DNA of 64,000 nucleotides. Source: Gongronella butleri. Its lineage: Eukaryota > Mucoromycota > Mucoromycetes > Mucorales > Cunninghamellaceae. The DNA lies in assembly GCA_025201375.1 (NCBI GenBank), contig JAIWZP010000077.1:1-64000 (forward strand). Reading direction: 5' to 3'. This document shows positions 1,106-46,354 of the stretch, in pieces. Both the position numbers and the translations under genes were made by a program. Below the pieces are notes generated by a model. The model saw nothing but the letters and a program-made list of their open reading frames with translations. It did not search any database and was not told the origin of the DNA. Every line of letters starts with the position of its first letter. The stretch's first letter is position 1.

Positions 1106-2589
1106 AAAGGAAGTAAAGAGCAGCGTTGAATCATTGCGCCTGTACAGTACTGTACAGTAGTTGCGAGTGCTGCCAGCCATACGCGACACGTGAAGAATGC
1201 AAAAGTGCATGTCAACAGAGCATGAAATGCTGTACTGTAAGTCCAATATGTGCGATGCGTGCAAAGTGAAAACATACTTGCTGACAGTGTTCAAATATCG
1301 TGTTCAACGGACCTGGCACGCCAAAAATGCTCTGGCACACGCTCAAAGTGACTAAATAAAATACCCAAAATACGCACTGCACACAACGGGGCAAGGTCGC
1401 ATTGGCAGCTACGAGAGCAAGAAACAGGTGAATGGTTGAACACCACCGATATGGGCACTCACCACCAGTTTGGAGTGCTCTAATATACGTAGAGTCTGCA
1501 GTGCTACCAACGATGACGAGAAAAAAAAGGATGAGAGAGAGAGAGAAAAGGAAAAGCGGGACCTGGCAGTCAACTAAAAAAGATTTTCTTATCTCCGATG
1601 TGGGCGAGGTTATCAATTCCCCCCATTTTTTTCTCAAAGTCCGTTTTCCGCACTCTTTTTTTTTTGTCGATCGTCATGTTCATGTCAATGAGTCAATGAG
1701 ACTCGCGTCTATTACAGTAGGCTCAGGTTGCATAGGACGACACGAAAACGGGTGTCTTTGGCTCGTGTTCTTTTGTTTTGCGTATTTTATAGTGCACGAC
1801 ATGGCCATGGACGCGTCCAATGTCCATGACTTGGTCTTTTTTTCCTTTTGGTGCATGTGACGATGGGAGTGGGTAGCATGTCGCTATGCGCGTTCATTGT
1901 GAATAGAAACGTGCCTCTGGACACGTTCTTTGTGAGCAACAGTCTATTCAGACGTGCTTTGATTCTGCTGCCCATCATGTCCAGGCAAAGAAGCAAAAAA
2001 AAAAGGCGGAAAACGGACTTGAAATACGCCGTTTTGCCCCCGCCACACCGCTGCTGCCGCCGCGCCCAATTGATCAGCCATTCTCTCATTCTGACTCCAA
2101 ATGCTTTCAATCTAAAATGAGTGATTTAATGTAGTTGTTTGGCATTGCGCACTGCTTTTCATGGGACACGGTTCCAAACCTGCCAATGGTCATTGTTTTA
2201 TTTGATGGAACAATTTTTTTTTGCAAAAAGGCTTCAGCATTATTCAAATGATAACGCGCTTGCAATTCATCGAATGCGATGCTCCAGCTCTTTTTTTTTT
2301 TTGCCAAGTCAATCAAATCGAGGGCATCTGTCAGCGCTTAACACTGCACAAATCATGGCACGGCCATTGCACGACTGGCTAACTCATTGAATGGCAATCA
2401 GTGCTGGCAATTCAAAGAACATGTTACAAGTCATTGAATTCCCGGTGCATGCCTGTTGCACGCTCGTTGATTTAATATTTTATATTTTTAAGCGTGGTCA
2501 TCGAATTGCCAGCGCACTTTCATTTTTCGCCTATTTTCTCTCAAATCGATGAGCATTCCATATCATCCAAAATTCATTTCTCCAGTGAT

Positions 2590-3560
2590 ACCTTCTTTTA
2601 AACACCAAAAAGCATGTTTTTCAAACTTTGCCGGCCAGCTGTGCTTCCAGAATAAAATTTACAGCCTGTTCGCCCTCCAATGAAACCTGCGTCATGTCAT
2701 AATACTGTAGGTACAGTACTACAGTAATTAAACTCTAGCCCAGTGCTCATTCAGGGCAGACCCGCTCGATTTTTTTTGGATCCGAAAGATACCAAAAATC
2801 TCCTATTTGTACTATTTTGCACTCATCTGTTTATCTGCATAGTCCACCCCGCTCAAAAACAGCTGTATCGCATTGAACGCAAAATTTGCAACAAAAAGGC
2901 TTAAACCCCCAAAGCGCTACGACCACTTTTGAAAAATTCAGGGGTCACTCAGGGGTCACACATTCCAGTCTCAGAAAATGCCAAATTTGGATTTTTCGAA
3001 CTCCGAGTGATCAATGCATCCCAAACAGGCAACTCCGACAATTTGCTATTGCCAGACAACATGGCAGATCACCCCAAGTTTAAGAAAAAAGCCCAAAGAG
3101 TGACGCATGAACGGCGATCGACTGAGAAAATTGCCTACATTAAGCAAGATTTTTTGCAAAAATTTAAGGGTTGACACTTCCAAATTAGGTACGTGGATTG
3201 CATGGAGTTTATTTTTTTACAGTACTGTATGACATTTTTTTTTTATTTTGCAGTGTTGAGTTGTGCGTTGAGTGGGCTACGTAAAGGCTGCTGCTGAAAT
3301 GACTGATGCAAAAAGTTAAAACTCAAGCAAGCGCGCTGCAACCTGCAAGTCATCCCAAGATTATGATAGATGCTTTGACCCCTTGTTTGTTAGTATGATA
3401 AAACGGCAATAAAAATCGGGGGTCAACTACAGTAGGCAGTTGTCAAGCAAATCACGACCAAAGATTTTCATGGTGGAAAAGTGAATTTTCTTTGCGAGTT
3501 TTGCTCAGATCACGATGAAACTTGCCGCATTCGATATGGATTCGACAGCTGCTTACGTAG
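2590..3560 (+). repeat. Dispersed repeat R1, copy A
   Basis: About 1 kb aligns with 42480-43470 (copy C), and its left part with 33300-33620 (copy B). Shared landmarks are ctcaggggtcacaca, gtgatcaatgcatcccaaac and gagtgacgcatgaacggcga. The copies differ by substitutions and by 5-bp expansions at TA dinucleotides. No conserved open frame spans the copies, so this looks like a degraded or non-coding mobile repeat. Confidence 0.8.
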
Positions 3561-4082
3561 ACACGTTAAAAGAACTATGGTTTCTCTTTCCGATTGTCGA
3601 GAAATTTAATTTTGAAAATTAATTCAATGTTTGATCAATTTTTGCAAGCGTGCAAAGTTCATTCATCGGCCGAGCAAACAATCTGAAAATGACATTCAGC
3701 GATGTCTCTTTTGAACGCAACCAGTTTCACCGCGGTCCACAAAATATTTCGAGAGCCAGAGCCGAATTTGCGAAAATAACGAATTTTCGGATGCATCTCG
3801 GTAACGGCCGAAAAAATTGTGGGATTCGATGGTTCATTGAAAAGAGGCACACCAAAAATCAAGTATTGACAACGTTGAGTGGCGATCCATTCATGGTTTT
3901 TGGTCGTCAACATTGTTGTACTGTACTGTACGGTATACTGTATGATATACTGTATGTATCATATCGTTTCTTGCTGAAAAGAGAGTCAATCTACAGTAAA
4001 TGTACAGTATCTGAGTACCATACAGCATACTGTATTCATAATTTCATATCATATTGAAAATGGTCGATTTGCTTTCGCCAAC

Positions 4083-4084
<2 letters not shown>

Positions 4085-4143
<59 letters not shown>
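4085..4143. repeat. Poly-A tract (about 59 nt)
   Basis: An uninterrupted A run in intergenic DNA, the longest homopolymer of the window. It could be the tail of an old retro-inserted sequence, but I see no recognisable element to its left and no clear target duplication. Confidence 0.8.
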
Positions 4144-4145
<2 letters not shown>

Positions 4146-4573
4146 TGTTCATCTACGGGCGTATGATACATAAAAGAACGCACGAGTGCACAGTAGTAGT
4201 ACTTCATCTCAGCGGTGCGTTGTGTGTGCTTCGTTGCAATTTGCAAATGTGAAGCCTTGGTATCATACCGTATGTTTTTGAGCAAAATTGGTGAAATGCG
4301 CATTTTTTCGGCTGAAACAGTGCCTGAATTTTCTGATTGTTCCCCCGCTTGCTCTCCCTTTTTTTTTTTGGACTTGATGCATGGCACGCACCTGACCATC
4401 GCTTTGGCAGATGGATGTCTGTGCCCTCTGTGTCTTGGCGGCGAGCCACTTTACTGTATGCAGGAGGCACAGCAAGACACATGTGCACCAAGGCGTAGCA
4501 ATTTGCTGTTGCGCTTGCGCGAGGAATGCGGAGAGTGCGGAGACGGGAAAAAATGATGTGCATCAGCAAAAAG

Positions 4574-4580
4574 TATAAAA
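4574..4580 (+). promoter_or_regulatory. Candidate TATA box of EDE1-like gene
   Basis: TATAAAA lies 74 bp before the chosen ATG and is followed by a T-rich stretch, a common fungal core promoter arrangement. Confidence 0.4.
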
Positions 4581-4653
4581 ATGGAAGGCGGGTTTTCGTT
4601 GGATAGATGCACCTTCTTTTTTTCCCTTTTTCTTTCGTTTCAGCTCTTTTTTA

Positions 4654-7600
4654 ATGGCGTATTCGGCGATGTCTTGGGAAAAGTACCTTTCTGCGCAAGA
4701 GGCAGTGGTATACGGGCAGCTGTTCAAGGCTGTTTCCAACGTGACATCCGGCATTGTCACGGGCACCGAGGCGGTGCAATTTTTTGCAAAGTCTGGCGTG
4801 CCTAACCAAATTCTGTCTGATGTAAAGTCTTTTTTGATGGACGACCTCGTTCTTTTTATGCCTCTTTGCTCTTTTACACTGAGCAGCCCTGACTCACCTG
4901 TTCGTTCTTTTTTCTTTGAAAAATAGATTTGGGAGACGGCCGATCGCGACAACCTTGGGTATTTGACGCCCGAGACATTCTCCATTGCACTGAAGCTTAT
5001 TGCTTGTGCTCAGCATGGCACCGAAGTGGCCGACCCCATCATCTCAACGAGTAAAGTGTGCACGACAAGGCGGGTGTGGCGGCCATTCTCACCATTTTCT
5101 TTCAATGGATAGGTGTGCCGCTTCCACAATTCAAGGGCATGTCGCTGGACACGGTCAGCAGCCCTCGGCCCAATGCACCTGCAGCTGCTGCTGCTGTTGC
5201 CTCTGCGCCGGCGGCCATGATCACAGCGACTGAGCGTGAAAAGTATGCGGCCATTTTCCGCGCGCAGCAGCCCAAAAATGGCGTTCTTGACGCCAATGCT
5301 GCGAAAAGTGTGTTTCTCAAGTCCAGATTGCCCAATGATACGCTGGCCGAGATTTGGTAAACATCGAGGGCAAATGGGAGTGGGGGAGAAAAATGGGGGG
5401 GGGCAGAAAATGGTAAAAAAAAAAAGCGCATTTATTGATGGATTTGCCCATTTTTTTTAGGGGACTCGCTGATGTGCGTCAATCGGGGACGCTGAACCAG
5501 ACGGAATTCACGATTGCCATGCACTACATTGCCAAGATGATGGACGGATCGATGTCGTCGTTGCCTGCGCAGCTGCCTGTGTCGGTGTATTCGTCGGCCG
5601 GTGGCGGCGGCAGTGTGTCGACGCCGCTCTTGTCGCATCAGGCGTCGCCCTTGGCACCGCAGCTCACGGGCAACAGCACGGGGTCGTTCCATCGCATCAT
5701 GACGCCGCCGCAGCGTGCAGCCACCATTGACTCGCTTGGCAGCTTTGCCTTTTCGACGGAGCCGCCGCAGCAGCAGCAAACGCCTCAAACGAGCCAAGCG
5801 CAGCAACCGCAACAAAAATGGGACGTGCCTGCGTCTGAAAAGACGCAATACGACTCGTATTTCGATCGAATTGACACGCAGCGCATCGGGTTTGTACAAG
5901 GCAAGGACGCTGTCGAGTTCTTCAAGAATTCGGGGCTTGCCGATGCGGATCTTGCGCACATTTGGGATCTGGCGGATACGGCGCAGCGTGGCCGCCTGTC
6001 GCGCGACGAGTTTGCTGTTGCTATGCACCTGATTCACAAGCGTTTGCGCGGGGAAACGTTACCCACGGTCCTCCCGCCATCGCTCATGCCACCCAGCCAT
6101 CAAGCATCCTCACCTGCCGCCTTTGTTGCCAGCCCCAGAGCCATGCCACTCACCAGCCCCGCATTTGCCTCGGCTATGCCTACACAGGATCCCTTTAATC
6201 CGCCCAGCAAAGGTAATTTTTTTTTTTTTTGAGAAAAATTGACAAAAAAAGACGTTTTATTGACTTCCCATTTTTCAGAGGGCAACCTGTTGGAGGACGA
6301 CTTGCTTGGCGACTTTGGCAACAATGATGCGCTGCCGCGCGAGACGAACCAGGTGAACCAATTGCACAACCAGATCAGCGCGCTGCAGTCGACGACGATG
6401 GACGTGAAGAAGCAAAAGGCGACGGCGGAGCAGACGCTTGAGCAGCTTGGCAAGCAAAAGGCCGAGTTGCAGACGGCGCTGACGCAGGTGCAGATGGCAC
6501 ACGACGCGGAAGTGAAGGAATTGAACGCGTTGCAAGAGACGATCCGGCAAGAAGAGCCAGCGTGGCAACAAGCGCGTAGCGAGTACGATGCGGCGCAACA
6601 GCAGCTGCAGGCGGCACGCCAAGAGATCCAGCAGCTCAAGCAGCGCATTGAATCCAGCCGCGAACAGTCGGAGCAATACCGGCAGCAAGTGGTCGCAATC
6701 CAGCAGGAAACACAACAATTGTTGCAACAAGTGGAACAATTGACGGGCGAAGCCAAGCAACAGGAGACCAAGACCGATATCCACCATCGCCAAGTCACGG
6801 CGGCCGCTCAGGACCGCGATCAAGCCAAGCGCCACATGGAAGATGCGAAAGAAGTCCAAGGAATGACGCAGGCTCTAGCCAACGACGTGCACATTGGCGA
6901 AACCAACGCGGCGCCATCGAATCCACCGAATTTGTCGACACCCATTGCCACTCATGGCGACGGAGACGACGGCGAGACGTCGTCCGACGATGACGAGCCA
7001 TTTGACCGCAAGAAATACGCGGCGGCGGCGGCGGCGTCACCCAAGTCGCCTACCAGTCCAAAGGTGCCCAGCAACAGCAACAGCCCCTTTGCAACCCATT
7101 CGACGACAGAACCCAAAAACAGCTTTTTTGACATTTTCTCGCCTCATTTGTCGCAGGCCGAGTCACCGGCAGGTACGCCCAAGCAAGAAACAACCGCGCC
7201 TGCTGCCAATGCCGCGGCCCCCGACGATTTTGATGCCGTGTTTGGCGACCTCGCGGGCGTGCCGTCGCCGGATGAGCAGGCCAATGACGAGCAGACCACG
7301 AAAAATGTCGTGCATGATCCGTTTGCCGCGTTTGGTGCGTCGGCCGCGGCCCCTACCCAGCCTGCCGCAACGTCGTCGTCGCCGTCTGCCTTTGACGACG
7401 ACTTTGATGCCGCCTTTTCGGGTTCCTTGTCGGCCGCCAAGGTCGCGACGGTCTCATCGCCTGTGCAAGGAAACGCCAAAAACACAGACATCGATGACAT
7501 TGATGCCGCGTTTGGCCTCTTTGACCAAAAGACCGTGCCCAAGGAAGCGCCCACGGCGTGGGCCTCGTCGTTTGACGGGTTTAATGCAGGTGCCAGCGGC

Positions 7601-21006: not shown

Positions 21007-22732
21007 ATGGTACGCGCCTTCGTCTTTCATGGCACTGCGATCGCCATATTTTTTGCCTGCTGACGCGTTTTTTTTAAATTTTACTCTTTTTCCAGAACGA
21101 GACGCCTATTGCACGCTCAATTGACTTGGAGCCAGACAGCGAGTTTCGCTTTGAAGTGGACTTTGAGGCCAAGGCGTCCATCAAGGTAAAAAGAAAATTA
21201 CACTAGATCTGGGCGCGCACGCGTTGCTTTGCTTATGGAGACACGAGCCTCACGCTATTTATTCGTCTAGCTCGTCAAGGGCACGGCCGAGATCTTTGGC
21301 ACGGAATTGGCGCAAGGCGTCGAATATACCTTTAGTGGCCGCAAGGCGGCCATTTACACGTGGCATGGATGCACGCTTGACGTGCAAGGCACTTTTCTCG
21401 TCGAATACACGGCCAACGAGACGCCCATGAACAGCTACCTCAATACACATCTGGCCATACAGCAATTGCGCATCGTTGCAAAGGACACCGTCAACATGGG
21501 CCCACGCGTCCTCGTCATCGGGCCTCAAAACGTCGGAAAGACATCCCTTTGCAAAATCCTCGCGAGCTACGGATACCGGCAAGGCGAGAAACCCATCTAT
21601 GTCTCTCTCGACACGGCAGAGGTGAGAAAAATCGAAAAGAAAACGTATAGATTCTTATGCGTTTTGTATGATTTGCTCATTTAATAGGGCTCGATCACGA
21701 TGCCTGGTGCCATCACGGCCACGACAATCAACCACTTAATCGACATTGAGGAGGGCTTTGGCTCTTCCGCGACGACAGCAGCCATTGGCTCCGTCGCGGT
21801 GCCGCTCGCCTACTATTTTGGCTACGAGAACCCGGCCGACAATGTCAAATTCTATAAATTGGTGGCCGACAAGCTCGCCAGCACGATCCAGCGCCGCCTC
21901 GCGTCTGACACGGACAGCCGCATTGCCGGCACCATCATTGACACGCCAGGATTGATGGATCACGTCGGCTACGATATCATCCAGCACATGGTTGATGTGT
22001 TTGCAGGTAAAAAAAAAAAAAAAAATCAAGAAAAACGTGAAAGCGACGCGCTTTGTGACGCGGTGCCGCGCCGATTTCTGACGGCATTTCTGACGATTCT
22101 AGTAAACGTGGTGATTGTGCTTGGCCACGAGAGGCTGTATAGCGACATGACGCGCATTTACAAGGACCGCAACGATATTTCGGTGGTCAAGTTGCACAAA
22201 TCCGGCGGTGTTGTCGAGCGCGAACGCGCGTACATGATGCAGCTGCAACGCACCAAGATCCAGGAGTATTTCTACGGCACGCCCAAACTCGAGCTGTCGC
22301 CGTACTCGATGCTCATCAACTTTTCAGACTTGAACATCTGGCGCGTTGGCGAGGCGGTGGCACCATCGTCCGCGCTGCCGCTGGGTATGGAGTCCCAGAG
22401 CAACGAGACCGAGCTGGTCAAGGTCGACAATCTGGACATGTGTCTCCATTCGGTCATGGCCATCTTGGATGCTGAGGACGATGCAAAGCCCGACGCACGA
22501 CTCTTGGATAGCAACGTTGTCGGCTTCATCTACATGTAAGTGTCCTTGCACACGCATCAGTTGGCAGCTCGCATGTAGTGGGGTGACCTTTTTTATTCGT
22601 ATTTACGCTTTTTTTTGTTTTAGATCGGACGTCAATGATATGACCAACAAGCTAACGGTGCTCTCTCCTGCACCGGGGCGACTGCCACGCAAACACGTCC
22701 TTATGGGCTCGTTCAAGTGGCTAGAGACTTAG
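21007..22732 (+). CDS. CLP1: mRNA cleavage/polyadenylation factor CLP1 (polynucleotide kinase family)
   Basis: Six coding exons: 21007-21009, 21096-21185, 21271-21621, 21688-22006, 22103-22535, 22624-22732; about 434 aa (human 425, yeast 445). The N-terminal beta domain has SEFRFEVDFE and KGTAEIFGTEL. The central P-loop GPQNVGKTSLCK binds ATP; DTPGLMD and VIVLGHERLYSD follow; the C-terminal domain ends VLMGSFKWLET. Clp1 belongs to cleavage factor IA (yeast) or CFIIm (animals) and, with the tRNA-splicing endonuclease in animals, acts as an RNA 5'-kinase. The start is inferred: exon 2 has no ATG in frame, and the only upstream ATG with a suitable donor is at 21007, giving a first coding exon of one codon (ATG|GTACGC). 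All other junctions are phase-consistent. Confidence 0.92.
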
Positions 22733-23883
22733 GCAGGCAGCTCCGCTTTAAGCATCATTGCATTGTAGATTCATAAAGAAGGGATAAAATAATCTGTATT
22801 TTTGCATTTGCTCGTTCTTTCCATATTCCAGTTCTTTGTCCTGTTGGAAAACGAATCCACTGAATACTGTATCATAGGGGAAACTTGTCGCCATTTTTTT
22901 TTAAAACAAAACTCGTCAAAAGCGCATCCATCTCCGCGTTACACGTGTCGCTGGCCTTGCTGACGCGTGAATTGGCGAGAAACAGGGCTGGCTCGTGACA
23001 TGATGATGAGCAATCGTCGTATTTTACTGTTAAGTATGATATACTGTACTACACGTGACTTGTTGTTGCAATGACTCTGAAAGCTCGTATTTTCGATTTT
23101 GGTTTAGCAGACATCATGATACTCGTTCGGCTCTAGGAAAATCTGGCGCGGGTGACAAGAATAAAAAAAAAGATATCATACTGTACCTACTGTACGCACT
23201 CACTCGGGCAACAATTCGAGCCTAGCGACACTCATTTCATGTCAAAATCAGTGGCCCACGAAGCAAAATGAAAAAGTTACAATTTGAAACGAGCCAATTC
23301 TTTTGTGACGCGCTCGATTCACACAAACAAGCAGTGACTTTTGACGGGCCTGAGCCAGGGAAGGCGCACAAAAAAATGCGCGTAAAAATGCGCGTAAAAG
23401 CTAAAGTCAGGGTAAATGCTCGATGCTACGGTGCAATGGCACATCGTGTCATTTCAGCCGAAGGAAATGTGTCTCGGTAGCACGGATCGATTGATATTGT
23501 CATGAAGCACCGAATAGATTTTAAAGAATTGCGTCTTTTGGCAGAAAAACTGGAGACACGAGCGTGTGGCCGCCAAAATACCGGTACACAGAATTTTTGT
23601 GATTAGCGCAGCATTCGCACGCAAGATTGGCATCTTTTATTGTTTACATGCTTTGTCTTGCCCCTTGTTCGCTGCAAGTAGCAGATCAACGCAGCAGTGT
23701 ACAAAGAGATTGAACTGCCATGTGTGTGTGGTGCAAGGTTGCACAATAAAAAAAGGGGCAAAGCGAATTCTGCATTGGCGGAATTTGACTGGCTGTCATT
23801 TCAAAAGAGCGAGAAAGCAACCCCTTTCTCAATTGCTCCTTTCTTCCTCTTTTTTTTTTTATTACTTCTCGTCGACACTTGCT
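22733..23883. other. Gene-poor spacer with repeat fragments
   Basis: Contains several TACTGTA/TACAGTA and TATGATA-type 7-mers (22868-23210) and a short R1 fragment. A CT/T-rich leader precedes the J-protein gene. No other gene is seen. Confidence 0.6.
23080..23290 (+). repeat. Dispersed repeat R1, fragment D
   Basis: A segment with ttcgattttggttt.gcagacat and following sequence aligns with 42070-42230 (copy C) and 33010-33150 (copy B). Divergence is high, so its limits are approximate. Confidence 0.5.
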
Positions 23884-32389: not shown

Positions 32390-32600
32390 GGAAAACAATC
32401 GCTGTTTTTTTTAAAATCAATACGCTTCCAATTTTCATCGGGCTACAATCATTCACATTGCAAGGGGCATGCGCACCATGCGATGAATTCGCGTCTTCCC
32501 GTTCAATTAAGCCCGCTCTTAGGACTCTGCGCCCACTGGTTGGCGCGCAATGTCAATTTTCGAAATTCATGCATTTTCTAATGTGTCCGGTGTGAGGGTA
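32390..32600 (+). repeat. Dispersed repeat R2, fragment 4
   Basis: Shares ctctgcg.ccactgg.tggcgcgcaa and the following ttttcgaaa with copies 1 and 3 of R2. Only about 200 bp align. Confidence 0.55.
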
Positions 32601-32659
32601 GTGTCAACGTGGCGGTTTTTTTGGAATGATTCAGCCGTGGATACAATAAAAGCCGTTTT

Positions 32660-33620
32660 GGTTATTGCTTTCATCACTAGCAAACACGAATCTCGAGATT
32701 TCTCGAGAGTCGAGACTAAGTGATCCGATGCGCGAAAAAAATTAACACCGCTGGAGAATTGGGTCTATCATATCATCAACTGGTCCAAATTTGGGACCAA
32801 ATGAGCCAGTTTCTGATGAGGCACCAGTTTCCTAGACGTAAAACGGGTAAAGTCATGAGCATTTGGTCACGTACTACGGCGGCAATGGCCCGACGCATCG
32901 ACGACGCGCGTGTCACTTCAAATAAATCAGCGACCAAACGCGGTAAAATCACTTGTATTTTGAAGGGATCGCGTTGAAAGGTCGGCAACTTGATGTGCAT
33001 TGACTTTGATAACTTGAATTTTTCAATTTTGGTTTGGCAGACATGCTGGCTCGACTCTGCCTGCCTGCCCATATGATACCGTATTCACAAAATTTTAGCA
33101 TCCGCAACCATGAAAAAATCACTCATCAGTATTTCAGCCAGTGCCCGCGAAAATGCACAAAAGCACGATTTTCATCCGTTTTGGATTTTGCACGCAAATG
33201 ATGCGTTTGATCCGCCCGTATTTCATCTCAGAGGACAGAACTGACGCGTGCTATCATTTCATTGCCTGAAGCATCGCGACACACAGCACAAAAACATACA
33301 CATTGACCTTTGAAAACCAAAGAGCGTGTTTTTCCTATTTTGACGGCCGGCTGTGCCTCCAGAATCTCTTTTACAGCCTGCCTGCCCGCCAGTGAAAATC
33401 GCATCATAGCCTAGACCGTGGCCCAGTGTTCAGGCCAAGCCCACTCGATTTTTTTTGAACACGAAAACGCGAAAAACGTTGGATTTGTCCTTTTTTTGCA
33501 TTCATCTCGCCATCTGCTTGGTGGATCCCGCTCAAAAATAGCTGCATCGCATTCAGCGCAGAATTTGCAACAAAACGCACGAGACACAGAAGCGATACAG
33601 CAACTTTTTAGGCCATTGGA
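32660..33620 (+). repeat. Dispersed repeat R1, copy B
   Basis: Collinear with copy C (41750-42830): tctcgagatttctc, tgatccga, ttttggtttggcagacat, gcacgattttcatcc, ttacagcctgcctgcccgcc and ctcaaaaatagctgcat. This copy almost lacks the TACTGTA/TACAGTA motifs that litter copy C, so it shows the unexpanded state at several sites. Confidence 0.75.
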
Positions 33621-33779
33621 GGCTCAATGGCAGCTTCAAGCTGAGTATTTTTCATTTTTCAGTTGAGATATTGAGAAAATTTAAAGAGAAGAGAGAGAGA
33701 AAGAGGACAGGCAAACACTGCAATAATCTTTGGAGCGATCTGCGGGTTTCACAGAGGTTTATCGCTAACATTCAACCTG

Positions 33780-34360: not shown

Positions 34361-34514
34361 AAAAAAAGAAAAAGAAACCGCTGGAGGCGTTTTTCTGTTT
34401 ATTTTCGCCTGCGGACATTCAAATCGGCGACAAAAAAAAAAAAAAAAACACGCTCGCGCTTTGGAACTCCTCTTTCACCTTCTTGTTTTTCTAGAGCAAG
34501 AATACACCGCCGAA

Positions 34515-36212
34515 ATGAGCGCGAACCGGACAAGATTCCGCCAAGAGCGTAAGCTAGACGAATAAATGCACTGGTTGCAGACGAGCAAATATGGCTAGTG
34601 CTCACTTTTTTGCTCTAAATATACAGGACAAACGTCCCAATTGGCTGACTGAGGTAATAAAAAAGGTCCCAAGCAGTGATTAATCGCCCACGCCACGACG
34701 ACAGCGCCACAATTGTGCCTGGCGACGGCGACGACCGCGCAAGCAGCCTTTTACCCGACGAGCAGTTGGTAAAGCATTTTTTCTCGTTCAGCGGCATTGC
34801 TCACGTGTTTTTGATAAAACACTACGAAGCGAGCGCGACAAGAGCTGGCGTTCCTGGGCCAAACGATCCCATGCCCGTAACGTGGACTTTTTTTTTTTTT
34901 TTTTTTTTTTTGCTTTTTAGGCCATGCGTTGAAATTGACCTCTGTTTCCGCCTCTTTTTATTTTTTATTTTTTAGGCTGTCATCGCGCGGCATTCTGCAA
35001 GCTGCCGTGGACCTGCGACGCGTCCCGGGTTCCCGGTGGCCATCTATGACCAAGGCCTCGTGCATTCTCTCCAATCTGCCGCATTTCTGCCACTCGAGAC
35101 ATGAAGACCTTTGGCCAAAGCTGCACGAAGTCTGTGCAATTCGTAAGATAATGGAAAAAAAGAGAAAAAAAAGAGCGCGTCGCGGACAATCCTTTTTTAT
35201 TTTTATTTTTATTTTTATTTTTATTTTTATTTTTATTTTTATTTTTATTTTTATTTTTATTTTTATTTTTATTTTTATTTTTATTTTTATTTTTATTTTT
35301 ATTTTTATTTTTATTTTTATTTTTATTTTTATTTTTATTTTTATTTTTATTTTTATTTTTATTTTTATTTTTATTTTTATTTTTATTTTTATTTTTATTT
35401 TTATTTTTATTTTTATTTTTATTTTTATTTTTATTTTTATTTTTATTTTTATTTTTATTTTTATTTTTATTTTTATTTTTATTTTTATTTTTATTTTTAT
35501 TTTTTTATTTTTTATTTTAGGTCGGAGGGTATCCTTTGCCAAGCTGCTCCCGTGGACCCACGCATTGCCGAGTCCGAGTATTGCGTCGGTACACTCTGGC
35601 CGATGCTCCACAACGTCGCCAAGGTCGCTCAGGGCGCCAATTTCGCGTGGCGAAACGGCGAAGTCTGCCTGGATGCAGCCAACGGCGGCAGTCCGTACCT
35701 GGCCGATGGCCCCATCAAGGCTGACGGCCTCGATATATTGCTTTTGGAGGCATTTGGCCCAGCTGGGTACTCGCGACTTGACGAGGCATGCCAAGGGCCA
35801 CGTCAAGGGCGCATTTGCGGCGCACGCAATGGTGAAGGCGATGCTCGAGAGGTACGCCAAAGCGGATCGCGCTCTGATCCAGCATGCGCGTGTCCTGTTT
35901 GTGCACGCCAGCTTGCGCGGTAAGAATTCGTGTATTCAAAAAGGCAAAAGTGAATCTCACTCGGAAATTCTTCAATTGGGAAATTGTTTTAGACGACTAA
36001 AGCTGCGCAAGCTGTCGTGGCCATGGTCATGCAACAGCCAGCAGTCTGCAATGTTCAAATCATCCCAAGAATTCATGCATGTGGCGCATGTCGCCATACA
36101 GCAATGGCCATGTCTGGTTCTTCCGGCGACTGGCCAAGGCAAATGTCTGCGGGCGCAACGAGTCGCTCGAAACGATCGAGATGCTGGAATTCTTTTGACG
36201 TGTCAAGGTAAT
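34515..36212 (+). pseudogene. Unrecognised fungal gene, probably broken
   Basis: A protein-like signal runs through this stretch but not in one frame. Plausible pieces are a short start (MSANRTRFRQERKLDE at 34515), a segment at 34676-34890, an exon at 34978-35143, and a long piece from about 35521 onward containing ANFAWRNGEVCLDAANG and ADGLDILLLEAFGP. Right after this the sensible frame shifts by one base (near 35775) to continue as HAKGHVKGAFAAHAMVKAML then HARVLFVHAS, and shifts again after a probable intron (about 35922-35992) before MSPYSNGHVWFFRRLAKANV. The pattern (ADG..LE...GP, then H.KGAF..HAM, then VLF.HA) recalls uncharacterised gene families I associate with zygomycete genomes; I cannot name a function. 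Two or more frameshifts suggest decay, though sequencing error cannot be excluded. One intron carries the ATTTTT expansion. Confidence 0.5.
35192..35518. repeat. ATTTTT hexanucleotide expansion, about 53 units
   Basis: An almost perfect run of ATTTTT over about 320 bp, with two units altered only at the right edge. It occupies an apparent intron (donor GTAAGA at about 35143, acceptor TTTTAG at 35520) and forms its polypyrimidine-like tract. The period of six keeps both strands open, giving meaningless Ile/Phe or Lys/Ile translations. Confidence 0.95.
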
Positions 36213-37528: not shown

Positions 37529-39366
37529 ATGAACGACCAAAAAGTCGGTATTCTTGGAGGTAAATGGCGTGTTTTGTCTAAAATTTGCGCTTATTTTGAT
37601 GTTTTCTTTAGGTGGCCAGCTCGGTCGTATGATGGTGGAGGCTGCGTCTCGCTTGAATTTGCAGGTGGTGATCCTCGATGCGCCGTCTGATGCGCCAGCC
37701 AAGCAGATCGAGTCGACGCAGGCGCACCTTGCGGGTGCTTTCAACGATGCAGACAAGATCCGTGAGCTTGCGTCGCAGGTGGACGTGCTGACGGTGGAGA
37801 TTGAGCACGTGAATGCGTCTGTGCTTGCTGAATTGGAGGCGCAGGGCAAAAAGGTGCATCCTTCTGCGCAGACGATCACGACGATCCAAGACAAGTATGC
37901 GCAAAAGCAATTTTTGGTGGCGCGTGGAGTGCCTGTTGCTGAATTCATGGATTGCCCCGACGAGGCTGCGGTCAAGGCGGCGGGCGACGCGTTTGGGTAT
38001 CCGTTTATGCTGAAATCCAAGACGATGGCTTATGATGGCAAGGGCAATTACGTTGTCAAGAGCGCCAATGACATTTCTGCGGCCATGCAGGCGCTCAGCA
38101 AGACGCCCTTGTATGCCGAAAAGTGGGCGCCATTCACCAAGGAATTGGCGGTGATGGTGGTGCGTCGTGCGAATGGTGAGGTGCGTTGTTATCCTGTTGT
38201 GGAGACGATCCACAAGAACAGCATCTGCCATTTGGTGATTGCCCCCGCGCAAGTGGATGGAGCCGTGCAAGCGCGTGCGCAAAAGGTGGCTGAAAACGCG
38301 ATCAAGGCGTTCCCCGGCGCGGGTATCTTTGGTGTGGAGATGTTTGTGCTGGAAGATGGCCAGATCTTGCTCAATGAGATTGCCCCCCGCCCGCACAATT
38401 CGGGCCATTACACGATCGAGGCTTGCGACACGTCGCAATTCGAGAACCACATGCGTGCCATCTTGGACATGCCCCTCGGATCGACGGCTATGAAGGTGCC
38501 CGCATCGATCATGGTCAATATCCTCGGCGAATCCGACAGCATGGAAGAATGCTATCGCCCTTGCCACGAAGCTCTGCTCGTGGACGGTGCCACCATCCAT
38601 CTTTACGGCAAAAAGGGTTGCCGCGCAGGCCGCAAAATGGGCCACATCACGGTGGTTGGCGAATCCATGCTCCAAGTCCAGCAGCGCATCAAACCCATCC
38701 TGCATGCCATTGAGCCTGGCGTCGAACGCCCCTTGTCGTTGCAACCCCTGGTCGGCATCATCATGGGCTCCGATTCGGACTTGCCTGTCATGAAGATCGG
38801 CGCGCAAATCCTTAAAGATTTCGGCATTCCCTTTGAACTTTCCATTGTCTCGGCCCATCGCACCCCCCTGCGCATGGTCGAGTACGCCAAATCCGCCGCT
38901 CAGCGTGGCATCAAGGCCATCATCGCGGGCGCAGGTGGCGCCGCCCATCTGCCAGGCATGGTCGCCGCCATGACACCGCTCCCCGTCATTGGCGTCCCCG
39001 TCAAGGGTAGCTCCCTCGACGGCGTCGATTCGCTTCACAGCATCGTCCAAATGCCCGTAAGTTTCCTCATGCAGAAAAAAAAAAAGCCAATTGACCCCGT
39101 TTTTTCTATTTTGCATAGCGCGGCGTCCCTGTGGCCACCGTCGCCATCAACAACAGCACCAATGCTGCCCTGCTCGCCATCCGCATCATCGGTGCCTTTG
39201 TTCCGGGCGTCCTTGAGCAGATGGATGAGTACATGGTCAAAATGGAGGGCGAGGTCATGCGCAAGGTCGACAAGCTTGATCAAGTTGTACGTAACAACAA
39301 CGCAAATGAAAGACACAGCTGTCTCATACTTTTTTTTACTCGAAATAGGGCTGGGAAAACTACTAG
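37529..39366 (+). CDS. ADE2: Phosphoribosylaminoimidazole carboxylase (PurK-PurE fusion)
   Basis: Four exons: 37529-37559, 37612-39056, 39119-39286, 39349-39366; 553 aa (yeast Ade2 571). The N-terminal PurK-like ATP-grasp part (about 1-385) begins VGILGGGQLGRM and has YDGKGNYVV and [19 protein letters not shown]. The C-terminal PurE part (about 389-553) starts [14 protein letters not shown] and has SAHRTP and [12 protein letters not shown], then [13 protein letters not shown] across the second intron. It makes CAIR from AIR in de novo purine synthesis in the cytosol. The fused PurK-PurE order is the fungal form. The last exon codes only GWENY and stop. Loss of this enzyme gives red-pigmented colonies in yeasts. 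Confidence 0.97.
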
Positions 39367-39752
39367 ACATACATTGTAAATATACGAAAAAAAATAAACG
39401 ACCTTGTTTTTTTACCAAAATTCTTCATCTGCAATGACACGCGACCCAAGAGAAAGTAAAAAGAGACCTCAGATGGCGTACGAGTCATTTGCGGCTCAAT
39501 TTCGCATAAAACAGGGCATTTTTTTTTTCGATGCTTTTGTTTTATGCACGACGCGCGATTTTATGGCCCATGGTTTGGGAACACGGGGATGAAGCATAAA
39601 CGATTGGCCATGCACACCGTGCAACTTAGATAAAATGGCGCGGCATATCACGCAGACGCGTCACGTTGCGCTCAATCCATTGGAAGACACCATTTGTACA
39701 AACGGAATTTATTATTTTTGGAAATAAAATACAGTAGGACAAAAGAGGCTAA
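39367..39752. other. Convergent 3' spacer
   Basis: Space between ADE2 (+) and the F-box gene (-). It has the ADE2 polyadenylation signal and one TACAGTA (near 39731). No gene is seen. Confidence 0.6.
39393..39398 (+). terminator. Candidate polyadenylation signal, ADE2
   Basis: AATAAA lies 27 bp after the ADE2 stop codon. Confidence 0.5.
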
Positions 39753-41393
39753 TCACAATGATTTTAAATTGGACAAAGATTTGCAAGAGACAATGGCCAC
39801 TTTGCCATCGTTGATGTGATTCCAGGCATCTTCGGCCAGCTCTGACGGGAACGTGTCAGGAGCAGCAAGCGGGGCTGTATTGTCTTGCAGGCGAGCGTCA
39901 ACCCAGCGCCAAATCTGCTTTTCGAGCCATTGGGCTACAATGGACGGCAATGGCTCGATTAGATCTGGCTCGGCATAGATAAAAGCCTTGAGTCGTGGCT
40001 GGCCGGGTTGCGTGTTTTCCAGAACAAGGTGCAGCATGTTGTTGTCGCCGCCGTGGAGCTCGTATTGTAGAACCAGGCCGTGAACAGGGAGCGACACCCA
40101 CAGTGCCGTCATGGCAAATAGCAATAACATAGGCTGCATCAATGTGTTTTCTATCGAAACTGGTATGTAGGGCACCTTGACAGTGTAGAGGAAGCTGATA
40201 GAAACATGGCTCAGCTTTGGGCACGCCAGAGCCAGACGTTCCAAACTGGAGAGGCGGTCGGATTGTAGCTGGAACACGTCCAACCGTTCCAACACGAAGC
40301 TTTTGTGCTCACGCTCCCATTCCACAAATGTATCTTTTTCAAAAATTTCTTCATACAGCGTCAACTTGGTAAGAAGTGGCGCGCGTTCCATCAAAGGCAC
40401 CAGCATGTTGCACCAGTCTTCGTCAATTTCATCAAAACCATCACCTTGAGCATTGATCGCATGCACATTGGACAGGGGCCAAAATTTGAGCAAAGGGCGC
40501 AAGATTGGCGGGTCCATTGTCAAATTCTTGATGCTGCCTTCCAAGGACAGGTTGGAAAACCACGGATCGAGAAGATCATGCTCTTCAGGGTCAAGGTAAT
40601 ATCTGTAGACACCATTCAATTCAAAACTGAGATTGGCTGGCAGAGCCATGACCAAGGAGGCCGAAACTGGGGGCAGGATCTGCGAGTGTAAATCTCTTTG
40701 CCTGTCAGCGTAGCAAACCGTGACAATGAGTTTGTCGAGCCGAAGCGATGTCAGCAGATAGACCAGCAAGACAAAAGGAAAGAGAGGGTCACCGTCACCA
40801 TAATCGTCGATAGTCATTTGCAATTGTCTCAACCTGCGCAAGCGCGAGGGCGTCCCGCGGTCTTGCGTGTATTGCACAAGATGTTGACCGTCCATTCTTC
40901 CGCGCAAAAAGTGAGCATTGAGCGATTCCAACGCTGGAAGATGATCCAGAATCTTTTCAAAGACATTGAGGTCGCCACCACGTTGAATGTCGCCAAGCGT
41001 CAAATGTGTCAATTGCCGAGGCAAAAGAGCAACATCCGTGATGGGGCTCTCGTCCAAGTTTCCAAATGACTCGTAGTGAAAAACCTTCAGACATGGCAAG
41101 AAGTTCAGCGAGTGGCAGCTTGGAAGCGCGCGACAAAGTCGCAAGAACATGGAGGGTTTCGCCGGGCAATCGAAGATGACGCGCTGAAAAGGTGGGGGCG
41201 ATATGCCGGGCGATTCAAAGTGATCCAAAAAGAGGCGCAATTTCTCGTTGTTATCGAAAACAATGTCAGCATGACGGGCAACCAGTCGCGTGGCAATATC
41301 GCGCATGGTCGTGTTGACGAGGCGCGCCGTGAGAAGGTCCTTGACGCGAAGACATTCACAAATAAGATCGAGAATTTCTGGAGGAAAAAGCAT
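39753..41393 (-). CDS. F-box protein with leucine-rich C-terminal part
   Basis: Single uninterrupted frame of 546 aa. The N-terminus has an F-box-like helix set (about 1-40: MLFPPEILDLICECLRVKDL, then LVNTTMRDIA). The rest is rich in leucine with irregular LRR-like spacing (for example LTHLTLGDI, LRRLRQLQM, PLLTKLTLYEE, LERLALACPKLSHVSI). F-box proteins link substrates to Skp1-cullin ubiquitin ligases; the substrate here is unknown. Such genes are numerous and fast-evolving in early fungi. No intron is apparent. Upstream is a 46-base poly-A tract. Confidence 0.75.
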   Translation of the reverse strand: MLFPPEILDLICECLRVKDLLTARLVNTTMRDIATRLVARHADIVFDNNEKLRLFLDHFESPGISPPPFQRVIFDCPAKPSMFLRLCRALPSCHSLNFLPCLKVFHYESFGNLDESPITDVALLPRQLTHLTLGDIQRGGDLNVFEKILDHLPALESLNAHFLRGRMDGQHLVQYTQDRGTPSRLRRLRQLQMTIDDYGDGDPLFPFVLLVYLLTSLRLDKLIVTVCYADRQRDLHSQILPPVSASLVMALPANLSFELNGVYRYYLDPEEHDLLDPWFSNLSLEGSIKNLTMDPPILRPLLKFWPLSNVHAINAQGDGFDEIDEDWCNMLVPLMERAPLLTKLTLYEEIFEKDTFVEWEREHKSFVLERLDVFQLQSDRLSSLERLALACPKLSHVSISFLYTVKVPYIPVSIENTLMQPMLLLFAMTALWVSLPVHGLVLQYELHGGDNNMLHLVLENTQPGQPRLKAFIYAEPDLIEPLPSIVAQWLEKQIWRWVDARLQDNTAPLAAPDTFPSELAEDAWNHINDGKVAIVSCKSLSNLKSL

Positions 41394-41481
41394 TCTTGTC
41401 GACTAACAAGATCACGAACAAAGGAAAAGCAGGATAAGTGAAAGGAAAAGGGACCATTGTTTTGATAAAAAGGTTTGCCGC

Positions 41482-41528
<47 letters not shown>

Positions 41529-42511
41529 GCGGAAAATATGATACGCCAAAAAAGTGTTTCGTGTCGCCCATCGGATCACCAAACAAAAGCGTGGCCCTTT
41601 AATTTTTAATTTTTAGGCGGAGAACGACTCGCCACATTGCACACACTCTCTCTCCACGCAATTTCTGCTACATGCAATCACTTGGCTACCGGAACTTCGA
41701 GATCATTTTCTTTTTTATGATATTCTGTATTTTGGCTCTGGGGTTTTACTACAGTAGCAAGCCCAATTCTCGAGATTTCTCAAGACTGAATGATCCGATT
41801 TGCCAAAAAAAAATTGACACCGTCGGAGCATTGAGCGAGTTCATTATATGAGCAAGTTCAGATACTGTACGTACATAATACTGTAAAAGGGGATAAAGGG
41901 GAGCAAAATCGCCACCATCTAATCGCATACGTTCTGCTACAAAGGCCCAACGTACAGTATTGACGCGCGAATCGCCTCAACTAAATCAGAAGCCAAACGT
42001 GGCACGGTAAAGCACCTGTTTTTGAAGATACTTCAGTTACTGTATATGTTTGGCGTGCAATGATTCTAAGACCTCTCGTTTTTTCGATTTTGGTTTGGCA
42101 CATCATTGGCAGACATGATGCTGGCTCGTCGACTCTGCTGCCTCCTGCTTGCTTGCACACATTCACGAACTTGAGTTTCCGCAAGCATGCGTGAAAAAAA
42201 ATCAGTCAACATTTCGGCAAAAGCACGAGAAATGCACGAAAGCACGATTTTAATCCTTTTTGTTGGAATTTTATAATACTGTAGACTGTACGCACAAATA
42301 AAGCGCTTGATTCGTTCATGTTTCGATCTCAGTACACAGAACTTGTTGACGTGCGCTATGATACTGTATCATTTCAATGTTTGAAAAAATAAGAACGCGC
42401 TACACTGCATAAAAACGTACTACACATTCACCTTTAAAACAACACCCAACAACAAAAACGTGTTTTTCAGGTTTCGCCGGCTTGATGTGCTTCCAGAATT
42501 TTTTTACAGCC

Positions 42512-42528
42512 TACTGTACAGTACTGTA
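42512..42528. repeat. Nested 5-bp footprint array
   Basis: TACTGTACAGTACTGTA: three 5-bp units on a TA. Copy B has the unexpanded site (cctgcctgcccg), exactly 15 bp shorter. Confidence 0.7.
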
Positions 42529-42612
42529 CTTGCCCGCCAATGGAACATGCCTCGTGAGTTCGTTACTATGTACTGTAATCGTGATGATATATCATAATAC
42601 AATAAACTACAC

Positions 42613-42660
42613 TACAGTACAGTACTGTACTGTACTGTAATACTGTACTGTACTACTGTA
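42613..42660. repeat. Large TACAG/TACTG array
   Basis: 48 bp made almost entirely of overlapping TACAGTA and TACTGTA words in both orientations. It can fold into a hairpin because the two words are reverse complements. Confidence 0.85.
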
Positions 42661-44400
42661 GTAGTAGCCCACCAGTGCCCAAGACGAACCAACCCGATTT
42701 TTTTGATTTGGACTGTCGAAAATTCCGAAAACCCTCTATTTGTACTATTTTGCATTCATCTGGACGTCTGCATGGTAGACCCCGTTCAAAAATAGCCGCA
42801 TAGAATTCAACGCAAAATTTGCAACAAAAAAGCTTAAACCCCCAAAGCGCTACGATCACTTTTGAAAAATTCAGCGGTCACTCAGGGGTCACACACTTCA
42901 ATCTCAGAAAATGCCAAATTTGGGGAATTTCGAACTCCGAGTGATCAATGCATCCCAAACAGGTAACTTCGACGATTTGCTATTGGCTGACAACATGGCC
43001 AGTCGCCCCACCTTAAGAAAAATGCCCAAAGAGTGACGCATGAACGGCGATCGACAGAGAAAAGAGCCTACTTTGGAGCAAGATTTTTTTTGCAAAATTT
43101 AAGGTTTGACATTTCCAAATTAAGGTAGTGGATTGCAGGGAATTTTTATTTTTTTATTTTTCTACAGTACAGTACTGTATTTTTTTATTTTTTTACAGTA
43201 CACTGAGGAGTGCGTGGACTGCAGGCTGGTGAAATGAGTACGTAATAATAAATGACCGATGCAAAAAGATACAGTAAAACCCAAGCCAGTGCGATGCAAG
43301 TCATCCCATTACTGTAGATGCTTTGCCTCCCTGTTTGTTAGTAAAACTGTAATACTGTAAAACGCGGGTGTCGAATACAGTAGACCATTGTCGAGGAGCA
43401 AATCGCGATCAAAGATTTTGATGAAAAAGTGGGTTTTCTCATCGTGGAGTTTTAGCCACCATCCGTCGGTAAAACTGGTCTCATCATTTGATGCAGATGC
43501 TGCAAGTGCCTTCGAATGTTACAGTAAGTATCATACAGTATCATAGAGTAGTAGTACTGTTGTTGTAGGTAGAGTACTGTAGGACTGTTGTACTGTACTA
43601 TGGGAGGAAGTGGGGTGGTGATTTTGTTGAAATGCGCCGGCACTAAAAGTTGACAAAATTGACCGAGGTTGGCACCCCAAGTGCAAGGGGGGTGTACGGT
43701 ATGCATGCCGGGTAAATGCTGTTGAGAGTGTGATTTCGAAAATGAGGTGATTTCTTTGACTTTCGCACAGAAACAAGATAATACTTGTTGTCAGCGTGTG
43801 AGTGATTCAAAACTTGTCTCGGCGGTGAATGCCGAATGTTGTATGATGCATGTGTTTTGATGAGATGTGCAAACCTTGAGATTGCAGGAAGTTGGGAGAG
43901 TGAGGGGCGATTTTGCATGAATGACGGGTCGCGTCGATCGGTCGTTGAATTTTTTTTGCATTGGCGCGTCCGTGCTGCGAATATACTGTGAGTGTGGAAT
44001 GATCACGGCTGATGCTTGCTGCGCCAGCCTGAGCCGTGACACGTACGGTAATCCGTTGTCGAGAACAGCGAGGTTGAAAATTTTTGATTAAATGTTATTG
44101 GACAAGCGGGGGGTGGTGCACACTACTGTACTGGCGATCTGACAGCAGTAAATCATACTGTTGCTTGTAGTACTGTATGATACCTATGATACAAAGGTCG
44201 GTAGGTTGCGCATCGGATTTGCCGGGCTGGAACAAAATAAATGCCCCTGGGCGGGGGCCTGGGGGACTATGACATGTACAGTATGATACGATAGATCAGC
44301 ATAGATGAGAAACAAAACAAGGGACATACAACGGCGGCATTGGACGCATCGCAAAGGCAGAGCAGCTGCCACCGCCGCTGAAAAGCGTTATGATACTGTA

Positions 44401-44818
44401 CAGTGCCCGGACAAAAAAAAGTTTCGCTGTGCATAATTCTCTGCAGTGCAAGGTATCAATTAATCGCGTTAATCTCTGCTGTATTGATCAATAATGGCTC
44501 CAGTGATATGAAATTTTGCAGGAACAATGATTTAAAAGTAAAAAAGCAATTCTAAAATTATGAAATGGCTATGCCAAGCGGGTATTGAAATAGATCAAAA
44601 AAGGGATACCTGACGCGTCACGCGACGCGACGCGTACCTACGCGTATACAATGGCCTGTGGAGATGAATTGACGTTATGAACACCATCTCCAATTTTTTT
44701 TGCAACGAGTGCAATGATGCCTAATTGTATTTTAAGAATCAATTCCATGTTACATGCATTGCATCGGTGCTGTGATCGAATAATGTAAAATCATCATGTG
44801 ACACGCTTCACGCGTCAG
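44401..44818 (+). repeat. Left inverted-repeat arm
   Basis: Runs inward from CAGTGCCCGGAC to the shared sequence cacgcgtcag, beyond which the arms diverge. Confidence 0.9.
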
Positions 44819-44987
44819 TTGCATCTGGAATAACAATTGCCATCTCTGTTATCTAATTTTAATCCCTAGTTGGCTTAAAACCATTGTACTTATTTAATTT
44901 GAAGGACTAGAATAGACTGTTATCGATTGGTTGACCAGTAGGAGCACTACGACCATGTTACGAAGGAAATCGCGACTTTTGACGCGT

Positions 44988-45405
44988 CTGACGCGTGACG
45001 CGTGTCACATGATGAATTTTACATTATTCGATCACAGCACCGATGCAATGCATGTAACATGGAATTGATTCTTAAAATACAATTAGGCATCATTGCACTC
45101 GTTGCAAAAAAATTGGAGATGGTGTTCATAACGTCAATTCATCTCCACAGGCCATTGTATACGCGTAGGTACGCGTCGCGTCGCGTGACGCGTCAGGTAT
45201 CCCTTTTTTGATCTATTTCAATACCCGCTTGGCATAGCCATTTCATAATTTTAGAATTGCTTTTTTACTTTTAAATCATTGTTCCTGCAAAATTTCATAT
45301 CACTGGAGCCATTATTGATCAATACAGCAGAGATTAACGCGATTAATTGATACCTTGCACTGCAGAGAATTATGCACAGCGAAACTTTTTTTTGTCCGGG
45401 CACTG
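44988..45405 (-). repeat. Right inverted-repeat arm
   Basis: Reverse complement of the left arm, ending GTCCGGGCACTG. It is followed by TA and then by a run of CTGTA/CAGTA units up to about 45427. Confidence 0.9.
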
Positions 45406-46354
45406 TACTGTACAGTACAGTACTGTAAAACAACGTGCAAAAGATCATTGCTCGCTCTCGTTCTCTTTCACATATCATCTCTTTTCGCTTTTTATTTGTG
45501 CGCTCTACAACACCTAACCTGATGATGGTCGATCTTCGGTTTTTATGATATCATATTATATTTTTTTTTCGGAAAAGAGAGGTGCCAAATCCTCCATTGG
45601 CAAAGCTTTGTGGCATTGCTGCGAAATGTCCTTGGTGCTGCGTTGGTGATGAATTTTTTTTTCAAATTACATCATAAAGCATTGTTTGTTACGTAGGGTT
45701 GATTAGATCAAACGCATCTTGAAAGTCCCCCCGCCCCTTTGACAACAGGTTCAATCCCTGACAAAAGCCAAATTCGTTATGCAACAACAGGCCAGCAGAG
45801 CACGCACAGCAGGCCCCAGAGAGTGATGTCATTCAATACTGTACCACTATGACTCCTTCTTTCTATGATATTCAAGTGTGAAATAAGATCAGGATGGAGG
45901 ATGCTATTTTTTGGGCCGATTGCAGGATTGCTACTGTATCATATCAGCAAAACCGCGATTTGGATGATTTTGCTCATTTGGGCGCGCCAAGCAATGGTTT
46001 TAGACAGCGCACCGGTGGCGCCTGGCGCTCACTGCTGATGGGATGCATGAATTTAGATGGCCCCTGACGCTATGCTACAATCGGATCAGCTACAGTGACG
46101 ACAAGGGCGTCGCAAATGCTCTGAGGCCGGATGCAAGCTGATGAGGGCATGTGAATGACGATGCAGATCACTAAATTATAGCTTGTGCGACCCTGTGCTG
46201 CTGACATCGCGACAATGCCAATGCGTCGTCCATGCAGCATTTTTGATTCCCGCCCTCCATTTTGGGTACTTTTAAAGCGACCTCCCTTTTTTTTTTCGTT
46301 CTTTCTCTCTCTTTCTTGTGCTTGGTCTCCTGCCCCCTTTATTTATTCGTAAAA

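Follow-up and report, generated by a model that had tools for sequence, protein, structure and literature searches.

Here, we examine a stretch of 64,000 nt (the window), with which contig C86 begins, from the genome of the soil fungus Gongronella butleri (Mucoromycota, Mucorales, Cunninghamellaceae; 33.0 Mb, 110 contigs). In its gene-poor islands, short words of the form TA-NNN-TA are concentrated, and one of these islands contains a foldback transposon, here called E. We consider it very probable that such units are the excision footprints of Tc1-type transposons and that E then targets adjacent scars, with the result that the arrays of units extend themselves. The words belong to TACAGTA/TACTGTA (TACWGTA; units CWG), to TATGATA/TATCATA (TATSATA; units TSA) or to a third and rarer class, TACCGTA/TACGGTA. 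The window also carries copies of a repeat of ~1 kb, R1. Its islands, arrays and transposon are the following (no strand assigned):

1..4600: gene-poor island with many TA-NNN-TA words
1143..1159: three-unit array TA CAG TA CTG TA CAG TA
3919..3947: two adjoining mixed arrays, CTG CTG CGG and CTG TGA (all three classes)
22865..23185: second island, with the arrays CTG TCA (22865-22876) and TCA CTG (23174-23185) and single units
42512..42528: three-unit array CTG CAG CTG, 15 bp inserted at a single TA relative to the R1 consensus
42613..42652: arrays CAG CAG CTG CTG CTG (42613-42639) and CTG CTG (42641-42652)
43163..43179: three-unit array CAG CAG CTG
43529..43545: mixed array TCA CAG TCA
44389..44400: array TGA CTG, adjoining the left end of element E
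44401..45405: element E, non-autonomous foldback of 1005 bp, ends CAGTGCCCGGAC...GTCCGGGCACTG, perfect terminal inverted repeat of 300 bp
45406..45427: four-unit array CTG CAG CAG CTG, adjoining the right end of element E
45544..45555: array TGA TCA (second footprint class)

Distribution of the TA-NNN-TA Words

The window contains 26 copies of TACAGTA and 42 of TACTGTA. The initial annotation had confined these words to gene-poor islands outside coding sequence, and this description holds: 66 of the 68 lie in three islands (1-4600, 22700-23500 and 41400-46300; 10.3 kb), the other two starting at 39730 and 63760, and none falls within six open reading frames (ORFs; 9.6 kb). Five of these ORFs have a Pfam match above cut-off and one has a sub-threshold F-box match alone. 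The island borders were drawn after the words had been seen, and the count in the six ORFs was added as an independent check; the TA dinucleotide is itself ~3 times rarer in those ORFs (17 vs 51 per kb). A third-order Markov model of the islands yielded a mean of 8.1 TACWGTA words, with at most 15 in any of 30 simulations, compared with the 66 observed (models of order 1 and 2 gave means of 0.8 and 1.9). Outside the islands, 2 were observed and 1.2 expected under the third-order model. The arrays that had been named at 1143-1159, 42512-42528, 43163-43179 and 42613-42639 plus 42641-42652 all exist, as does the element at 44401, which has CAG...CTG ends and a TA at both sides.

The pattern of TACAGTA and TACTGTA originally noticed was thus genuine; the TATGATA/TATCATA and TACCGTA/TACGGTA classes had been overlooked. 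Of the former, the window has 29 words, 25 inside the islands and 4 outside, often within TACWGTA arrays. A census of all distinct TA-NNN-TA words, as the initial annotation had proposed, covered 340 kb (~1% of the genome, including the window and overlapping loci, each word being counted once by its context). CAG/CTG was indeed the commonest class (663), followed by TCA/TGA (240), AAA/TTT (73) and CCG/CGG (57), with at most 26 words in each of the other classes. Three of these four commonest classes are self-complementary except at the centre (C[A/T]G, T[C/G]A, C[C/G]G), the fourth being AAA/TTT. Genome-wide forward counts were 16,213 for TACWGTA (reversed-word control 6,355), 9,529 for TATSATA (control 1,031) and 1,613 for TACWGTACWGTA (control 12). 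Background extrapolated from the densities of the window outside its islands (0.037 and 0.074 per kb) would amount to ~1,200 TACWGTA and ~2,400 TATSATA words.

Insertions in Copies of the R1 Repeat

R1 has 896 candidate places in the genome, the best 40 of which were scored with window positions 42401-43540 as the query. Existing loci and 15 fetched copies supplied 46 pieces (two overlapping loci and matches of <60 bp were left out); the 38 of at least 550 bp were aligned and the 8 shorter ones dropped. The R1 features of the window are:

2601..3491, plus strand: R1 copy A (the part matched by BLAST)
3317..3318, no strand: plain TA in copy A, whose counterpart in copy B is TACAGTA with one neighbouring substitution
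3362..3368, no strand: TATGATA in copy A near consensus site 654 (TACTGTA in copy B, 43310), aligned as an 8-bp insertion with 3 bases beyond the unit
33423-33575: further R1 match
42401..43540, plus strand: R1 copy B (the stretch used as query)
43270..43276, no strand: TACAGTA in copy B, where copy A has TA
43310..43316, no strand: TACTGTA in copy B at site 654

Each of the 38 copies shares 85-95% identity with the consensus. This majority consensus of 831 nt is without any word of the three classes, and TA accounts for 30 of its 830 dinucleotides. Relative to it, the copies carry 34 insertions of five bp, 21 of which convert a TA into TA-NNN-TA. All 21 triplets belong to just two of the 32 possible classes, CAG/CTG (14) and TCA/TGA (7). 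The CAG/CTG triplets inserted in R1 equal the terminal triplets of resident elements, as expected if this class is a footprint. Five of the ten insertions of 10 and 15 bp are likewise of the TA type, four of these being stacks of units (TCA+CTG, TGA+CTG, CTG+CAG+CTG and CCG+TCA+CTG) and the fifth GAGAACAGTA; at other lengths from 3 to 30 bp (single-letter insertions excluded) there are 15 of the TA type. The CCG triplet occurs here just once, within a 15-bp stack; the census has 57 CCG/CGG words, and CCG-ended elements are present. Comparison of R1 copies had been named beforehand as a check, and the differences between TA and TACAGTA/TACTGTA do proceed from TA in steps of 5, 10 and 15 bp.

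At site 118, where the consensus has a plain TA, three different copies read TATGATA (L029), TATCATA (L064) and TACTGTA (L073). At site 654 (CATTAGATG, again a plain TA in the consensus) TACTGTA is found in copy B of the window and in L064, and TACAGTA in L060. No site carries insertions in more than 3 copies, the insertions being spread over many TA sites. Since the same TA sites bear different triplets in different copies, the scars are more recent than the dispersal of R1 and have arisen repeatedly.

This scattered pattern is also relevant to the idea that selection has spread TACWGTA and TATSATA as regulatory motifs or protein-binding sites. Both are near-palindromes lying outside the six ORFs examined, as such motifs might; against this, the five-bp insertions are dispersed over many TA sites with at most 3 copies per site, transposon ends match two of the three classes, and neither the five-bp step nor the free central base would be explained. 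We regard a regulatory origin as extremely improbable.

Structure and Growth of the Arrays

There are 720 distinct runs of units, 573 of them consisting of one unit. Adjacent CWG units have the same orientation in 58 cases and different orientations in 53, and neighbouring units pair as CWG-CWG (111), CWG-TSA (75) and TSA-TSA (24). In six control triplet classes, no run of two or more units was seen. Away from E, runs composed exclusively of CWG number 399, 16, 13, 2, 2, 0, 0, 0 and 1 for lengths of one to nine units.

The tandem arrangement at a five-bp step could suggest a pentanucleotide microsatellite, in which TACAG/TACTG units arise and are extended by replication slippage, and a nine-unit run (L049:2232) does look like slippage. 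The neighbouring units, however, are not head-to-tail identical (58 same, 53 different), the unit classes mix freely (75 CWG-TSA adjacencies), and four of the 13 three-unit CWG arrays alternate twice, which is beyond a single slippage step from two units. Moreover, single units predominate (399 of the 433 CWG runs away from E), and in R1 they are one step from a plain TA. Slippage, the alternative that the initial annotation had set against its own proposal, therefore fails on the random orientation of the units and on the mixture of two or three classes per array, and we rate it as highly improbable. An ordinary microsatellite is at hand for contrast: at 35193-35518 the window has a 326-bp (TTTTTA)n tract of 54 copies with 98% match.

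In these CWG runs, the step from one to two units was taken in 34 of 433 and that from two to three in 18 of 34; had the first rate applied to the second step as well, ~4 would be expected (for the excess, p 6e-9 under this simple one-rate model). Runs composed exclusively of TGA/TCA show little such growth (133 of one unit, 10 of two and one of five). The CWG excess would be predicted if the target has to contain two adjacent scars; it is not a proof, since hot spots could do the same.

Element E and Its Probable Target

The family to which the element at 44401-45405 belongs has the ends CAGTG[C/A]CCGGAC. No ORF of at least 100 aa overlapping the element was found. At least 40 full copies, near-identical yet at different places in the genome, have 98-100% identity (the best 40 of 205 candidates). 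An autonomous relative (L060:2559-3891; 1333 bp) has a perfect terminal inverted repeat (TIR) of 30 bp beginning CAGTGCCCGGAC, and its terminal 28 bp are identical to those of the window element at both ends. The predicted transposase (~342 aa) matches PF01498 (HTH_Tnp_Tc3_2) and PF13358 (DDE_3), both above cut-off. By a count made by eye, 34 residues separate the second D (MEDGA) from the E (PIENLW), which gives DD34E. The sole match with a solved structure is Sleeping Beauty SB100X (aligned; E 2.9e-29). Among 634 homologues, a Tc1-like name stands on 3 of the 120 matches listed. This copy has the traits of a Tc1 (DD34E) element: TA duplication (the TA at the L060 ends included), TIRs, a length of 1-2 kb and the expected domains.

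All 98 distinct E-type ends, autonomous copies included, adjoin a TA. Beyond it lies CWG with an outer TA in 87 cases, CWG without one in 4, C[C/G]G with an outer TA in 5 and TTG in 2; TGA/TCA was found next to none of the 98. Hence CNG precedes 96 of the 98 ends (91 C[A/T]G and 5 C[C/G]G). Among the 53 distinct copies seen on both sides, CNG is present at both in 51 (33/33 in a first set, 8/10 further foldback and 10/10 further autonomous copies), whereas only 165 of 10,093 other TA sites in the loci (1.6%) have it on both. The first set comprises 34 rows, with the window copy counted twice; three diverged autonomous ends were read by eye, and one side is an E-E junction. The simplest reading of these flanks is a target preference for CNG-TA-CNG, which adjacent scars provide and which E's own ends provide as well. 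There are, in fact, three E-TA-E junctions with no unit in between (L003:2496, L016:1990 and L030:2497), where E's own end gives the CNG.

Exactly one unit is present on 59 of 101 E sides and two or more on 35. The middle base of the flanking CWG is T in 48 cases and A in 43, by eye without relation to element length classes; of the 32 rows with CWG at both sides, 19 have the same base left and right and 13 do not. A longer target duplication of 7 bp (TACWGTA) was considered and is excluded by those 13 rows.

Alternatively, the CWG triplet could belong to E itself, whose true ends would then be CWGTACAGTGCCC... with the outer TA as the target duplication. The near-obligate CNG and the outer TA on 92 of 96 CNG sides fit such an arrangement. 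It is difficult to reconcile with a random middle base in scored copies that are otherwise 98-100% identical, with the 13 of 32 rows in which the two sides disagree, or with the absence of the triplet at the three E-TA-E junctions. Furthermore, CCG/CGG flanks E at the background rate of units (5/96 vs 57/722), and two or more units occupy 35 of 101 E sides, whereas a CWG unit stands on ~6% of given sides of other TAs. Longer ends of this kind seem to us quite unlikely.

The flanking units might also postdate E, if it entered a plain TA and was then repeatedly excised and re-inserted locally. Sites once struck are struck again (18 of 34 CWG arrays of at least two units have at least three), local hopping of Sleeping Beauty is described in the excerpted part of PMC7827188, and two of the 53 copies are one-sided. 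Random re-insertion to the left or right would, however, give many one-sided copies, in contrast to the 51 of 53 that are two-sided; no copy is plain at both ends, exactly one unit stands on 59 of 101 sides, and TGA/TCA, a quarter of all units, never adjoins E (0/98 ends). We find such a sequence of events unlikely.

Other Transposon Families

The ends of the resident families begin with CAG or CTG in four families and with CCG in two, one of the latter having copies with CCA as well. In the DDE_3 families with the ends CTGGATTTGTCC and CAGAGTTTCC, mostly one end per copy was seen. Further ends are CAGTAGGTTCTGG (DDE_1), CCGTGGCTCTC and CC[G/A]TACCC. There are 74 DDE_3 matches (some elements give two), with many stop-free frames of equal score. 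PF01359 matched nothing in this genome, and its controls gave no match either. Families used as controls rarely have CNG before their TA: 1 of 22 ends for CCGTGGCTCT, 1 of 6 for CTGGATTTG and 1 of 5 for CAGAGTTTCC. A related CCRYCCC family has CNG in 11 of 13 rows, the remaining two rows being without a preceding TA.

The CCG-ended DDE_3 family (L062, L063 and L118-L135; 1.63 kb), in which frames of 346 aa with equal scores occur at nine places, lies at TA without a preference for scars (1/22 ends). In another DDE_3 family, of 336 aa, four copies (L051, L052, L054 and L055, on C15, C5, C86 and C104) lie at most ~1.6 kb from a contig end and the DNA beyond them is near-identical, while the copy on C54 lies far from the contig ends; these may perhaps represent a subtelomeric or an assembly-breaking repeat. 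Two DDE_1 (pogo-like) elements of ~2.9 kb (L031, L032) have CAGTAGGTTCTGG ends and a transposase frame with stops.

The initial annotation attributed the words to a single Tc1-like source with CAG...CTG ends. The Tc1 footprint reading stands; the single class and family do not, as the presence of two or three classes implies that several families took part. Similarly, the element at 44401 has ends that fit, and yet the first scar at most sites was probably not of its making: none of the 53 copies lies at a CNG-free TA. E probably lands where scars already adjoin, and it is expected to lengthen arrays.

A Model of Scarring and Re-targeting

Tc1-type transposases cut the non-transferred strand at a point three bases into the element, and the resulting 3-nt 3' overhangs are converted by end joining into a footprint (PMC7827188, as excerpted); for Sleeping Beauty the consensus footprints are given as TACAGTA and TACTGTA (PMC4378557, likewise). 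In G. butleri, a cut 3 nt within the element would leave 3-nt 3' overhangs on the flanks. These overhangs would pair at their outer bases, and repair of the single central mismatch in either direction would produce C[A/T]G, T[C/G]A and C[C/G]G. In a first stage, families without any preference beyond TA (CTGGATTTG, CAGAGTTTCC, CCGTGGCTCT and a putative TGA/TCA-ended family) would scar single TAs. In a second, E would insert at the TA where two scars adjoin, or where a scar adjoins the end of an older E, so that the E-free allele before insertion would already read TACNGTACNGTA. Each unit would be an excision scar and the units that flank E would be older than its insertion. Excision of E from CNG-TA-CNG would leave CNG-TA-CWG-TA-CNG, in which one target has become two; growth from two to three units would thus be driven by E. 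Because every excision would double the targets at that spot, the arrays would feed on themselves and E would stay in non-coding islands. We are inclined to see E as a scar-homing transposon whose transposase reads TACNG-TA-CNGTA, a sequence that resembles two of its own ends placed back to back.

Several observations weigh against this interpretation. Excision is deduced from a single assembly. For the genome-wide TACWGTA count, the reversed word makes a poor null (it occurs 6,355 times itself), and the 340 kb of the census were chosen for E, transposases and R1 and are not a random sample. As aligned, 13 of the 34 five-bp insertions in R1 are not of the TA type, although some of them are TACAGTA beside a substitution (e.g., at 43270 in the window). 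The nine-unit array at L049:2232, one CTG plus eight CAG, looks like true slippage. The CTGGATTTG and CAGAGTTTCC family ends are provisional, mostly one end per copy having been seen. In ~1% of the genome no TGA/TCA-ended element was found by perfect and relaxed inverted-repeat scans, a repeated-start scan, or a repeat-boundary scan, nor in two further transposase loci (L136 and L137), and yet there are ~9,500 words of that class. Two of the 53 E copies (L095/L096, with L095 at C19:78525, and L097/L098, with L097 at C17:328079) are one-sided, CTG being paired with TTG at the opposite flank; the odd side, which reads TGATTGTA in both, may be a mutated CTG or a looser target. E was found at a TA lacking CNG on either side in 0 of 53 cases, so its role as a maker of first scars is not demonstrable. 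Finally, an outer TA accompanies 92 of 96 CNG sides of E vs a background of 606 of 1,088 (sites that have CWG and an outer TA, as a share of all those with CNG to the left, which omits a few C[C/G]G cases). Such an excess could mean that the preferred target is longer, or that single sites were hit repeatedly instead of attracting E.

Comparison with Known Systems and Significance

The comparisons below draw on excerpts of the papers cited. With Sleeping Beauty and Tc1, the G. butleri system shares the words, the TA target and the logic of the 3-nt overhang, and the E transposase is homologous to SB100X; integration of Sleeping Beauty is described as near random with a preference for AT-rich palindromes (PMC7827188, PMC7913693). 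Unlike those of Sleeping Beauty, the G. butleri scars are natural, number thousands per genome and fall into two or three classes that fit different families. E resembles the IS630/Tc1/mariner DD34E elements in its TA duplication, CAGT ends and transposase with helix-turn-helix (HTH) and DDE_3 domains, and it differs from them in a target context, CNG-TA-CNG, that is far longer than TA. The Stowaway miniature inverted-repeat transposable elements (MITEs) in intron 4 of the Triticeae beta-amylase gene are also Tc1/mariner-related and lie within older footprints that record repeated gain and loss (PMC1925063). They concern one intron site across species with variable short footprints, and the excerpted account has neither a scar preference nor a genome-wide record. 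In PMC8449440, the Ac-mMITEs of pineapple and (as cited there) Micron of rice are MITEs that favour a short tandem repeat, which is read as damage limitation. The pineapple elements are, however, Mutator-like and aimed at (TA)n, whereas in G. butleri the repeat itself consists of transposon scars.

Among the open-access papers listed, we recognised none that describes a transposon with a genome-wide preference for excision scars or the transposons of this fungus, and no word beginning with "transpos" was found in the G. butleri draft-genome paper. Public reads are mentioned for several other G. butleri strains (BioProject PRJNA639031; SRX5287802, SRX9171236; PMC9117579, as excerpted).

Among the genes of the window, the ORF at 37554-39437 encodes a protein that is 100% identical over the matched part to a G. 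butleri phosphoribosylaminoimidazole carboxylase.

The footprints of cut-and-paste transposons are usually lost in random sequence; here they are dense and of few classes. If our interpretation is correct, the scars constitute a countable record of thousands of excision events, which R1, with its ~900 candidate places, puts in order: the numbers of excisions, the order of the families and their re-targeting could become readable from one assembly. A Tc1-type transposase with a target context of ~8-12 bp would also be useful in genome engineering. For the fungus, the arrays would be self-building landing pads, a non-coding safe haven created by transposition itself. And if E does home to scars, it would exemplify a family that prefers to land in its own waste product, which offers a simple way into a harmless niche.

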